Shown here: positions 1,218 to 11,419 of the stretch, in pieces
Position numbering within the stretch: position 1 is the stretch's first letter
Layout: every line of letters starts with the position of its first letter
Virus record (IMG/VR): IMGVR_UViG_3300048928_000603
Span: 1-20,544 of that record
Origin: a virus
DNA: 20,544 nt
Strand: one strand, 5' to 3'
The notes under the pieces: generated by a model
Database searches by the model: none
What the model was told of the DNA's origin: nothing
Seen by the model: only the letters and a program-made list of their open reading frames with translations
Translations under genes and position numbers: made by a program

Positions 1218-1850
1218 TTATTTTATTGAAAAGCCAACTATTAAACCAGCTGCCAACCAAGTATACCATTTTTTATACCATGGTTCCGGAACTACTACTT
1301 CAACAGATTTCATTTCTATTACTTTTATATAAGGATTAGTATTTGTAATATCTGTTACTGCTGTTTGCTTACCTAAAAACCACTTTCTTTTAAAACCGGT
1401 TATTGATGTTGTGCTAGTCCATGTGCTTAAAGAATCGATCTGTATTCCCTTTTGATTTGATTTATAAGAAAATCTATACCAATCCTTTTTAACTTCTCCT
1501 GTACGCTCAAAAATGCATGGAACTGTATCTTTATATGCAATCCTTATCGTATCAATCTGCATTACCGTTTTATACTTGGTAATGGTATTGACTTTTAAAA
1601 ATTCCTTTGCCAGTTTAGCCAGTTCGGCATCTTTATCCAGGATAACTTTTTGCAATTGTTCTTTATCCAGTTGCAGTGTATTGATGCTGGCCGTTTGAGT
1701 ACCCAACTTATTTTTAAAGTGTTTTACAGTGTCGATGATCGCTTCTAAATTAGAATCAGCATGTGACTTATGAAAGCTGCAGGTTTGCATCGATGCTAAT
1801 AACAGGACCAACAAAACCAGTATTGCCATGTATGGGATATACTTTCTCAT
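1218..1850 (-). CDS. Spanin-like membrane protein with two terminal TM segments
   Basis: Last gene of the late block, directly after the endolysin (its ATG overlaps the endolysin TAA by one base), the usual place for a spanin-type third lysis gene. The 210-aa product has a hydrophobic N-terminal anchor (~residues 5-22), a charged helical, probably coiled-coil stretch (~35-90), a beta-rich middle part, and a second hydrophobic segment at the extreme C-terminus (~196-208) preceded by aromatic and lysine residues (WYKKWYTW). Proteins of this layout are common and mostly unnamed in Bacteroidota phages. There is no proper lipobox around C24, so it does not match a classical unimolecular spanin. 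The spanin role is inferred from position and topology only; it could equally be an unrelated membrane protein. Confidence 0.7.
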   Translation of the reverse strand: MRKYIPYMAILVLLVLLLASMQTCSFHKSHADSNLEAIIDTVKHFKNKLGTQTASINTLQLDKEQLQKVILDKDAELAKLAKEFLKVNTITKYKTVMQIDTIRIAYKDTVPCIFERTGEVKKDWYRFSYKSNQKGIQIDSLSTWTSTTSITGFKRKWFLGKQTAVTDITNTNPYIKVIEMKSVEVVVPEPWYKKWYTWLAAGLIVGFSIK

Positions 1851-2314
1851 TAGTCTAATACTTTTGGATGAACAAATAATACACCTGTCGTTTTTCTAAC
1901 TCTGTTCATAACCTGCCCTCCATTACTTTGATTAGTTAATGAAGTATTGCCCTCAATTGAATAAAATATTCCTGAACCCATGGATTTCCAACCGTTGAAT
2001 ATTCCAACATGGTCATAACGGCCGTCATTATTCCAGTCAAAAAATACAAGATCACCAACCTGAGGATTTTCTGTAATTTCACCTGTTTTTTTAAAATGTG
2101 CTACAGCAGTCTGGCATCCGGCAAAACCTTTTGTAAATCCGATTTTAGGCAAAGCATAACCTGCCTGAGCATATACCCAACTGCAAAATATTCCACACCA
2201 AGCAACACCATCAAAACCAAACCATTTACCGTATTTTGTTTTATTGCTATTCACAGGGCTTTCAACCTGTCCAACTTCTTTAATAGCTACATCTATAATT
2301 TTTTGACCTTTCAT
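1850..2314 (-). CDS. CHAP-domain endolysin (peptidoglycan hydrolase)
   Basis: A 154-aa cell-wall hydrolase consisting of little more than a CHAP (NlpC/P60-like) domain. The catalytic cysteine is C40 in GVAWCGIFCSW; the histidine is H102 in RYDHVGIF, preceded by the typical QVGDLVFFDW strand (85-94); the polar third residue is probably E121 or N123 in IEGNTS. It would act as an amidase or endopeptidase on host peptidoglycan. There is no signal peptide, so release to the periplasm should depend on a holin, which fits the small membrane protein encoded immediately upstream. No separate cell-wall-binding domain is present, as is common for phages of Gram-negative hosts. A bifunctional or purely virion-associated role is unlikely given the lysis-cassette position. 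Confidence 0.9.
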   Translation of the reverse strand: MKGQKIIDVAIKEVGQVESPVNSNKTKYGKWFGFDGVAWCGIFCSWVYAQAGYALPKIGFTKGFAGCQTAVAHFKKTGEITENPQVGDLVFFDWNNDGRYDHVGIFNGWKSMGSGIFYSIEGNTSLTNQSNGGQVMNRVRKTTGVLFVHPKVLD

Positions 2315-2316
2315 AA

Positions 2317-2859
2317 TTATTCTGTTTTTTCGTCTTTTTTATTAAATAAATCATCTAGGTTCCCATTCTTCTCAAAATTGTATAACCTTTCCATTATGAA
2401 TGCCGGAGGGAATTTATTCTGATTAAGTATATAAATGTTTTTTAGTGTTTTAGATATAGGATATAATAAAGTAGTTACCTGAATAAGTACTTTAAATGAT
2501 TCCCCTACTATATTGTTCCCTGCTGTATTTCTCAACATATCAAGGAGAACATACACAACCAGCACGTTTATAAACATTGAAATGTTCCTCATAAAAAAGT
2601 CACCCCAGCTAAATGTGTTCATTTTTACATGATAAACTATACCTATTATCATGTTTAGTATCAATGCTACTAATACATAATTAAAGAACTGACTATTATC
2701 CTTATACCAAAAATCAAAATAATCCAGCACCAAAACCACCGGAGCTGATGTAGCTATCAATTTAAGCCAATATTGAATTTTCTCTGCTATTGAAGGTTTA
2801 TCCGAAGCCAGTAAAATGATTGAGAAATAAATTTTTCTGATAAATAGTGTTAATTCCAT
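2317..2859 (-). CDS. Putative holin (multi-span membrane protein)
   Basis: A 180-aa protein with several hydrophobic segments: roughly residues 30-47 after the charged SDKPSIAEKIQYW stretch, 60-77, 92-110, and a weaker one near 120-137. The C-terminal tail is charged and ends in KKDEKTE. It is 2 nt upstream of the CHAP endolysin and 5 nt downstream of the tail-fibre gene, the normal holin position. Size and an N-terminal SDKP-type motif before the first strong membrane segment resemble holin-family proteins annotated in Bacteroidota prophages. Pore formation and lysis timing are inferred from context; the sequence alone shows only a small polytopic membrane protein. Confidence 0.75.
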   Translation of the reverse strand: MELTLFIRKIYFSIILLASDKPSIAEKIQYWLKLIATSAPVVLVLDYFDFWYKDNSQFFNYVLVALILNMIIGIVYHVKMNTFSWGDFFMRNISMFINVLVVYVLLDMLRNTAGNNIVGESFKVLIQVTTLLYPISKTLKNIYILNQNKFPPAFIMERLYNFEKNGNLDDLFNKKDEKTE

Positions 2860-9538: not shown

Positions 9539-10579
9539 TTATTTATTTTTTGCGTTTTTAATTCTTTCAGCTGCTCCAGCAAACCTGTTAGCAGGATTAA
9601 TGTTTTTCGGCTTTTCAGGTGTTTCTTTCTTGCCGCCAGCATTAAATTGTGATTTAACTTTTGCTTTAAGCTTGTTAAATTCTGTATTAATGGTATCAAT
9701 CTGTGTTTGATGGCTGGCTTGTGCATCTGCTAACTCCTGAGTTAATCTTTCATTTTCAGATCTCAATTCTGCAAGTTCATCATCACCTTCCGGATCTTTG
9801 ATTTCCATTAATTCTCCAGCTGCAAACACATAAGTGAATCCATCCGGAAGCAGGTATTCACCTTCAGCAGGTGTTCCATCTACAGTAGCTTTTGCTCCTA
9901 CTTCTATTACGGCATCATCTGCCAGATCGGTAAAGTCTATTTCAGTGCCGGTAGCATCCTGAATAACTTTGTTTTTGATTTTTGGCGATAACAAGGTTTC
10001 CAGTTTCCCGAAAATTTTTGTAAAAAAGCCTTTGTCTTCTTCAGTCATACTTGATTTATTAAATGGTTTAAAAAATGCTTTTGCGGTAACCGGTAGCGGT
10101 TGTGATGTAGTAAAACCCAATGTCTGTAATTGCTCAGGAGTTAACCAGGATTCATCCCTTAACAATGGTTGTAGAGCTTCTTCAGAAAGATTTAATTCTT
10201 TCTTATAGAAGTCCATTAGCTGTTTTTCTACAGCTCTCAACTCTTTTGCATACTGTTCCAATTCATCTGCATTGCCTGCACTTTCCATCCAAGGTAAATG
10301 GATCATGAATTGTGTATTAGGTAAAATGCTTCTGCTGGATCCTGCCATAAAAATTACTGTAGCAATAGAAGCAACAAGACCGCTGCCAATTGTTTCAATT
10401 GGTTTACCTATGGAACGTATATAATTAAAAATGTCAAATCCTGCATCTACAAAGCCACCTGGTGAATTAATATGAACCTTGAATGATACAGCTTCTGGCT
10501 GGCCTTTAACCTGACCGACTATATCAATCAAGTTAACTTCAATGCCAATTTCTCCGGATATATAAATGTTTCCTATCAT
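9539..10579 (-). CDS. ClpP-type prohead protease fused to a scaffold-like domain
   Basis: Residues 1-~160 form a ClpP/SppA-like serine protease: HINSPGG (36-42), nucleophile S71 in GLVASIATVIFMAGSSR, H94 in FMIHLPW, and D142 in RDESWLTPEQLQTLGF. Such proteases mature the procapsid by cutting scaffold and capsid arms. After a linker, residues ~178-346 hold a second part: a SMTEEDKGFFTKIF start, a beta stretch with GEYLLPDGFTYVFAAGE, then a coiled coil (~255-310) and a basic tail (to NAKNK), as expected for a scaffold. This resembles the lambda C/Nu3 arrangement, and M178 could serve as an internal start. The gene opens a new block after the moron and directly precedes the capsid gene. The ATG at 10579 was chosen because the protease fold begins right there. 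Confidence 0.9.
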   Translation of the reverse strand: MIGNIYISGEIGIEVNLIDIVGQVKGQPEAVSFKVHINSPGGFVDAGFDIFNYIRSIGKPIETIGSGLVASIATVIFMAGSSRSILPNTQFMIHLPWMESAGNADELEQYAKELRAVEKQLMDFYKKELNLSEEALQPLLRDESWLTPEQLQTLGFTTSQPLPVTAKAFFKPFNKSSMTEEDKGFFTKIFGKLETLLSPKIKNKVIQDATGTEIDFTDLADDAVIEVGAKATVDGTPAEGEYLLPDGFTYVFAAGELMEIKDPEGDDELAELRSENERLTQELADAQASHQTQIDTINTEFNKLKAKVKSQFNAGGKKETPEKPKNINPANRFAGAAERIKNAKNK

Positions 10580-10583
10580 ACTG

Positions 10584-10591
10584 TAAAATTA
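10584..10591 (-). promoter_or_regulatory. Possible -7 box for the head-gene block
   Basis: On the minus strand this reads TAATTTTA, one mismatch from the Bacteroidota TAnnTTTG element, and it ends 4 nt before the protease ATG. No convincing -33 TTTG is seen upstream. A promoter is plausible because the preceding minus-strand genes end at a hairpin 320 bp away, but readthrough could also supply transcription. Confidence 0.2.
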
Positions 10592-10630
10592 GATAGCGAA
10601 AAATGATGTTTAGTGCATTGGTTTTTGCAT

Positions 10631-10638
10631 TAAATTTG
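10631..10638 (+). promoter_or_regulatory. TAnnTTTG-type -7 box of the moron gene
   Basis: TAAATTTG matches the Bacteroidota -7 consensus exactly and ends 4 nt before the ATG at 10643, so the transcript would be leaderless or nearly so. A weak -33 candidate (TTTA, 10609-10612) lies 18 nt upstream. A direct repeat of TGCATT (10614-10619 and 10626-10631, 12 nt apart) touches the box and could be an operator. Confidence 0.4.
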
Positions 10639-10642
10639 TGAC

Positions 10643-10903
10643 ATGGAGTATTTGATTATTTTTTTAATATGCTGTACAGCAGTTGGGTTTGCCGTTATCA
10701 AAACGGTTCGTTTCTTTTACCCGAAAAAGAAAGAAAGTAACCCATACATCGCTTATCAAAAATTAAAGATCAATAATGATAAGCACTATGATGAATATTT
10801 GCAGTGGCTCCCTAAACAGGATAATGTTTGGCCAGTTGATAAGGTAATGGCTAAAGAAGATATAGATCGAGATAAAGATTTCAACAATCTTTTAAATCAA
10901 TAA
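10643..10903 (+). CDS. Moron-like small single-TM membrane protein
   Basis: An 86-aa protein encoded against the direction of all surrounding late genes. It has one N-terminal membrane helix (~residues 3-24, with CC at 10-11), then a basic stop FYPKKK that should keep the ~60-residue hydrophilic tail in the cytoplasm. The tail contains NPYIAYQKLKINNDKHYDEY, then WLPKQDN and an acidic C-terminus. I have the impression that similar NPY.AYQK.KI.ND proteins exist in Bacteroidota genomes, without known function. A -7-like box precedes the gene and a strong terminator follows its stop within a base, so it looks like an independent unit that could be expressed in the lysogen. Superinfection exclusion or other lysogenic conversion is a reasonable guess, unsupported by any recognised domain. 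Confidence 0.8.
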   Translation: MEYLIIFLICCTAVGFAVIKTVRFFYPKKKESNPYIAYQKLKINNDKHYDEYLQWLPKQDNVWPVDKVMAKEDIDRDKDFNNLLNQ

Positions 10904-10930
10904 AGCCAGCATAATGCTGGCTTTATTTTT
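10901..10930. terminator. Intrinsic terminator after the moron gene, shared with the convergent operon end
   Basis: Ten-bp stem TAAAGCCAGC (10901-10910) and GCTGGCTTTA (10916-10925), loop ATAAT, followed on + by a T-rich run ATTTTTTA. It begins at the moron TAA (10901-10903) and lies just past the stop of the convergent HTH-like gene (10930-10932). On minus the U-tract is weaker (TTGATTT), so it may act there too, less strongly. Confidence 0.85.
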
Positions 10931-11175
10931 TATGGTTTTTCCATAAAGGATATTACATAGTACATTGATCTGCGTGATATATCATAACGCGTTGCTACAG
11001 TCATTATAGCTTCTTCCTTTGTGGGTTTTGAAAAGTTTTTTTTCTGGTTTTCAATTTCTTGCAAATAGGCTTCATAATACGTCTTCCAATCCAGTATGTG
11101 AACAGGAATTAAGTTTTTACCCATTAGTTTAATAAAATCATCTTTAAGGCTTACAATTGTTTCATAGCGTGTCAT
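10930..11175 (-). CDS. Small HTH-like protein, unknown function
   Basis: The chosen start is the ATG at 11175, one base after the stop of the zinc-ribbon gene (TAA-A-ATG). The open frame extends further to an ATG at 11247, but that would overlap the upstream gene by 71 nt, against the spacing seen elsewhere. The resulting 81-aa protein begins MTRYETIVSLKDDFIKL and has an aromatic helix DWKTYYEAYLQEIE. Its end, TKEEAIMTVATRYDISRRSMYYVISFME, reads like a helix-turn-helix (helix, ATRYDIS turn, RRSMYYVI recognition helix). It is the last gene before the transcription break at the moron. DNA binding, possibly in late regulation or packaging, is an inference; a structural role is not excluded. Confidence 0.7.
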   Translation of the reverse strand: MTRYETIVSLKDDFIKLMGKNLIPVHILDWKTYYEAYLQEIENQKKNFSKPTKEEAIMTVATRYDISRRSMYYVISFMEKP

Positions 11176-11176
11176 T

Positions 11177-11419
11177 TTACCATTTGAGTTTCGGACAAAT
11201 ATCTTTGGAGCGAACCTTTGCGGATAACGGGCATCCGCATTGGTCACAGTAGGCTCCCTCTACTTCTTTTAGTTTATCTTTTATAAAGGCTAAAACTTTA
11301 CCTTGTTTTGCATGCGGACATGCTGCACATATTATTGCACGTTCCTTTGCAATCGTTTCTATTACCTCGCTTTTGTCAAGGTAGTTTTTCCAACCTGAAA
11401 GGATCTTTTTAATTTCCAT
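11177..11419 (-). CDS. Small zinc-ribbon protein
   Basis: An 80-aa protein with C31-x-x-C34 (IICAACPHAKQG) and C58-x-x-C61-x-C63 (YCDQCGCPLSAKVRS), then C75 in the terminal ICPKLKW. Two CxxC knuckles about 25 residues apart form a typical zinc ribbon; C63 and C75 add possible ligands. Small proteins ending in CxxCGCPL..K.R...CP..KW are frequent in phages, including those of Bacteroidota, with no established role. Its ATG overlaps the tape-measure stop by one base (TAATG), so it is translationally coupled, and it is followed after 1 nt by the HTH-like gene. Nucleic-acid binding or virion assembly are both possible. Confidence 0.82.
   Translation of the reverse strand: MEIKKILSGWKNYLDKSEVIETIAKERAIICAACPHAKQGKVLAFIKDKLKEVEGAYCDQCGCPLSAKVRSKDICPKLKW

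Follow-up and report, generated by a model that had tools for sequence, protein, structure and literature searches.

A small membrane-protein gene read against the late genes of a temperate Bacteroidota siphophage is best explained, as a whole, as a resident cargo gene that serves the lysogen and whose promoter overlaps a head-operon dyad bound by the neighboring regulator g105; we put the probability of this reading at about 0.5. The gene would have its regular place in a cargo slot that is conserved at the tail/head module boundary of these phages, and comparative evidence suggests that its own sigma-A-type promoter reads it as a leaderless mRNA. Its job would most likely be to change or protect the lysogen, and the other contents of the slot make exclusion of other phages the first candidate. 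Binding of the dyad by g105 is probable and would activate the head operon late in infection; in the geometry of the window the bound protein would also occupy the DNA just upstream of the -7 box of the opposite-strand gene and shut that gene off.

The window, that is, the whole 20.5-kb virus record analyzed (IMGVR_UViG_3300048928_000603; 20,544 nt), is a temperate siphophage of Bacteroidota with an integrase at one end and its late genes (terminase, tail, tape measure, g80, g105, head protease, capsid, portal, and endolysin) on the minus strand. A reading made from the sequence only had proposed that a single-TM gene on the plus strand interrupts this structural block, and the ORF, its TM helix, and its conservation confirmed this (Table 1). 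The product is predicted to be small and to sit in the inner membrane with its tail in the cytoplasm; a single N-terminal hydrophobic/TM helix (residues 2-25 in the AF2 model, pTM 0.29) is followed by charged helices and the motif NPYIxxHxxKxxNDKxYDxYLxW. Single-protein searches with it as the query returned zero matches in viral contigs, genomes, and phage records. No known exclusion family was matched in Pfam, PHROGs, NCBIfam, or PADLOC, where the best match reached only 0.0068 and no defence family was hit.

Table 1 Features of the window discussed in the text.
Feature	Position	Strand	Remark
Endolysin	1850-2314		
Multi-TM, holin-like gene	2317-2859		beside the endolysin
ClpP-type head maturation protease	9539..10579	-	first gene of the divergent head operon
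-7-like box TAATTTTA of the head operon	10584..10591	-	4 nt before the protease ATG
Dyad GTGCA-N8-TGCAT	10613..10630	.	centre 10621.5
-7 box TAAATTTG of the opposite-strand gene	10631..10638	+	box end 4 nt before the ATG
Opposite-strand gene, 86 aa, ATG start	10643..10903	+	between g105 and the head protease
Intrinsic terminator	10899..10927	+	overlaps the stop codon of the opposite-strand gene
g105, 81-aa HTH protein	10930..11175	-	candidate dyad-binding regulator; real start probably ATG 11175, not GTG 11247
g80, 80-aa Cys-rich (zinc-ribbon-like) protein	11177..11419	-	conserved partner of g105

Relatives of the gene were reached only via its flanking genes. Searched against viral contigs and genomes, these yielded 120 loci, in which the stretch upstream of the protease took 84 distinct forms. 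An opposite-strand small TM gene that starts 41-135 nt from the protease ATG, in the slot and orientation seen in the window, is present in about 31 loci, some of which are near-identical to one another. Hosts that carry the locus include Salinimicrobium sediminis CGMCC 1.12641 (L107) and Aquimarina intermedia DSM 17527 (L113). Ten of these counterparts are of a longer type that can be aligned with the window protein (NPYI..., YDxYLxW) and the rest are shorter; the two types are likely, if not strictly proven, to be homologous, and a long (L072) and a short (L107) representative have their N-terminal half in common. A profile search of all loci on both strands detected 27 longer-type members, every one of them in the g105-protease interval and on the opposite strand. 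The dN/dS ratios were 0.09-0.54 in ten pairs of the relatives' genes (the pair of the window and L031 was saturated), and a counterpart is present even in a prophage whose capsid protein is just 23% identical.

Seven relatives (L103, L036, L046, L048, L061, L070, and L085) lack the gene, although g105, the protease, and the protease promoter are all in place. When relatives without the segment between 10580 and 10930 were compared, L103 proved to retain the dyad and a degenerate terminator and to lack only the box and the ORF that L031 has. Because several relatives have intact flanks without it, these patterns fit a dispensable gene, whether gained or lost. The interpretation of the gene as a moron stood in substance: it has its own promoter box and terminator, it is absent from relatives with both flanks, and its slot holds defence genes elsewhere. 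The picture of a lone recent insertion was dropped, since many divergent phages carry counterparts that are placed and oriented alike.

Judged from its gene content, the g105-protease interval is a cargo hot spot, mostly on the opposite strand. This interval between two conserved phage genes varies in length (median 368 nt, maximum 5962, at least 1 kb in 18 of 70 cases), unlike the protease-MCP (capsid), g80-g105, and g393-g741 junctions, which are tight. The longest ATG ORF was on the opposite strand in 38 of the 56 gaps of at least 200 nt. Recognised anti-phage systems occur here in several relatives (L099, L123, and L029; L117 and L027). Opposite-strand occupants include PD-T4-7 (L029) and glycosyltransferases (L090), and SocA/Panacea, PIN, and methylase genes are encoded on the late strand (L117, L027, L047); lipoprotein-like and unassigned genes were also found, some without a tie to defence. 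By association with such slot neighbors, superinfection exclusion by the 86-aa protein is plausible. These findings point to a recurrent site for anti-phage and other cargo genes in little-studied Bacteroidota phages, and the anchor pair of g105 and head protease is a handle for finding more of them.

Two of the slots deserve separate description. A Flavobacterium salilacus prophage (L099:5581-8761) carries an opposite-strand type II R-M system consisting of a control protein, an NgoFVII-like PLD endonuclease, and an Eco57I-type methylase. In a distant prophage (L123:1489-2391), the counterpart of the window gene is directly followed by HEPN/AbiV in the same orientation.

The promoter box and the terminator that the sequence-only reading had assigned to the gene were found again. 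The terminator at the stop codon is strong, with a 13-bp stem of -21.2 kcal/mol (z -6) that none of 200 shuffles equaled, and it is not general among relatives. The TAnnTTTG-like box is present, and on its own it is not significant, as boxes of this type are about as frequent in the AT-rich window as expected (31 seen, 31.3 expected); what counts is the constant spacing in relatives. A box lies 3-4 nt before the start of the opposite-strand gene in 22 of the 31 relatives, 17 times as strict TAnnTTTG and five times with a final A. In F. johnsoniae, transcription starts 4-5 nt after TAnnTTTG (PMC6847099), and the predicted start of the opposite-strand gene is the A of its ATG (10643). The leaderless mRNA that had been suggested is therefore a well-supported prediction from the spacing in those 22 relatives.

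The protease commonly has its own -7-like box 4-6 nt before the ATG, kept in many relatives, which bears out the earlier view that the late transcription unit is split at this point. Taken with the known distance from box to start in F. johnsoniae, the conserved spacings indicate that the pair is likely arranged as two divergent leaderless promoters. Leaderless mRNAs are a small minority in Bacteroidota hosts (5.5% in F. psychrophilum; 3.7% under 10 nt in B. theta; PMC6847099, PMC9723704, PMC7366714). The phage starts resemble these in having the TAnnTTTG box with the start 4-5 nt downstream, whereas the predicted leaderless starts, rare in the hosts, recur at the divergent pair in many phages.

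The conserved unit between the two boxes in relatives is an inverted repeat, GTGCA-N8-TGCAC. Dyads of ~16-20 bp upstream of the protease, centered 42-46 nt from its ATG, were seen 11 times in 29 de-duplicated loci, compared with 0.73 expected and a shuffle maximum of 3. Their position follows the -7 box, so that most of these loci have the dyad center at -42.5 relative to the predicted start. In the window itself the dyad is imperfect, and shuffled sequence scores just as well; the dyad center lies at -42.5 relative to the start predicted for the head operon and at -21.5 relative to that of the opposite-strand gene. A TGCATT direct repeat (10614-10619 and 10626-10631) had been proposed as an operator of the opposite-strand gene. 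The repeat exists, but it belongs to the dyad and sits where a head-operon activator would bind, which argues against an operator of this gene alone. As a search pattern the dyad was unspecific: among 30 viral contigs holding it, five were this locus, and the other 25 had neither a detected adjoining protease nor a TM ORF at the start.

Some loci have further or differently placed dyads. In L072, L073, and L107, a second dyad, AGTAAT...ATTACT, lies between the GTGCA dyad and the protease, ~22 nt upstream of its ATG. AACTAAC/GTTAGTT-like dyads in L061, L038, L048, and L095 are centered ~25-30 nt from the protease ATG, not 42.

The candidate dyad-binding protein, g105 (74-84 aa among members), was modeled with high confidence (AF2 pLDDT 94). 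Its profile matches are weak and are to HTH_11, Mor, and late-activator PHROGs: Pfam Mor (PF08765) was matched marginally by one of 35 members (E 0.031), and the PHROG late activators (5e-4 and 0.004) each by a single member. Comparison with PDB folds gave generic HTH matches and no clear relative; the Mor fold 1rr7 (Z 5.0, rmsd 3.4, 52 aligned) ties with many HTH proteins. The half-sites differ between phages, being GTGCA in the window, L016, and L017, GACAT in L031 and L103, and TTTACAA in L007, L046, and L057. Near-identical g105 recognition helices tend to go with common half-sites, even between distant phages: sites are 93% alike in L065 and L067 (proteases 49% identical) and 100% alike in L007 and L057 (53%), whereas L002 and L007 differ in both helix and half-site with proteases 83% identical. 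Over 20 phages the correlation of helix and operator was 0.19 (p 0.015), and a weak 0.14 (p 0.048) with relatedness controlled, which is suggestive of half-sites that track the recognition helix of the adjacent g105. The Cys-rich g80 always adjoins g105 and may have a role in transcription together with it.

Mu Mor binds a 16-bp element at -43.5 that takes over from the -35 box (PMC4390567), and on this analogy g105 is plausibly a late activator of the head operon that works like Mor. Both Mor/C (PF08765) and g105 are small HTH proteins, and here the dyad of two short inverted repeats is centered at -42.5. They differ in that Mor has 129 aa, and the similarity of g105 comprises the marginal Pfam match with no convincing fold match. 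No described late activator for these phages was found in the literature searched. Late-gene control is now testable, with a small HTH protein and a dyad whose distance to a predicted leaderless head promoter is fixed.

The facing promoters fall mainly into two spacings, 54-55 bp from box to box (the window, L016, L017, L031, L072, L073, and L107) and 74-76 bp (L002, L007, L009, L033, L054, L057, and L062), which are about two helical turns apart, with a few loci at 61-71. In the narrower group the dyad center is about -21 from the opposite-strand gene, which suggests that this gene would be repressed while the head operon is on. In the wider group it is about -42 from both genes, which suggests co-activation of the opposite-strand gene with the head genes instead of expression in the lysogen. 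The two groups thus disagree on the timing of opposite-strand gene expression, and this is the chief source of doubt about it. It may be that g105, specific to the dyad of its own phage, activates the head operon and silences the lysogen's exclusion gene in a single binding event in the window's geometry, that other phages moved the second promoter by two helical turns and activate both, and that operator and helix have co-diverged, which would make the switch self-specific; this combination we offer tentatively and rather doubt.

The wider spacing leads to an unlikely but serious alternative, a late gene: a single symmetric dyad would let g105 activate it and the head operon together, and the membrane protein would aid lysis timing, assembly at the membrane, or release. 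In L002, L033, and L054 the two box ends are equidistant from the dyad (38.5 nt), and divergent pairing with the head operon is widespread. However, the window's dyad lies at -21.5 relative to the opposite-strand gene and adjoins the -7 box of that gene, the gene is dispensable in relatives, its slot mates are defence genes, and the window has a separate endolysin and multi-TM holin-like gene. With that multi-TM gene beside the endolysin, a holin role was rejected as the first choice. The protein could instead be a membrane partner that holds or senses for g105, as the genes are neighbors with a common operator region. This is quite improbable, because g105 and the dyad persist without the gene in L103, L046, and L036, and the family occurs in G099, G139, and G175, where no g105 match was found.

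Cargo that changes the host in envelope, nutrition, or stress and is unrelated to phage defence is improbable to a lesser degree: the slot's lipoprotein-like, glycosyltransferase, and further unassigned genes speak for it, but the identifiable occupants lean to anti-phage functions. A chance ORF or decayed gene, to which the lack of any database family for the window protein might point, has a negligible probability and was rejected, as it is refuted by conservation, namely homologues with a conserved motif, purifying selection, and a conserved start and promoter.

HK97 gp15 is a small membrane exclusion protein. The same is true of P22 SieA (PMC10883804). The lysogen-serving cargo gene proposed here resembles morons and these two proteins in lying among late genes as an accessory unit with a promoter and terminator to itself and in encoding a small membrane protein; it differs from them in matching no sequence family, in its predicted leaderless start, and in being old and positionally conserved. 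The slot is comparable to the anti-phage hot spots between two conserved phage genes in P2-like phages and P4 satellites (PMC9122126, PMC9519451), which are also small variable loci with defence systems and genes of unknown function (PMC9122126); the P2 hot spot likewise adjoins a structural gene, portal (PMC9519451). It differs from them in its Bacteroidota siphophage carriers, in lying between a tail-side regulator and the head protease with mostly opposite-strand contents, and in the one small TM family that recurs as resident, the start region of which is common with the head-operon dyad.

This resident family of small membrane proteins is a ready candidate set for exclusion tests. Tandem opposite-strand paralogues of the small TM protein occur in Flavobacterium prophages and related contigs (L022:4665-5922, L096, L023, L030, and L102). 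Two members were found outside the slot, one (L130) near a short integrase-like ORF beside a thioredoxin-reductase-like gene and the other (L133) adjoining a phosphoglycerate-kinase-like gene. A MAG labeled Methylophaga (L106) also holds this Bacteroidota-type phage, probably through a binning error.
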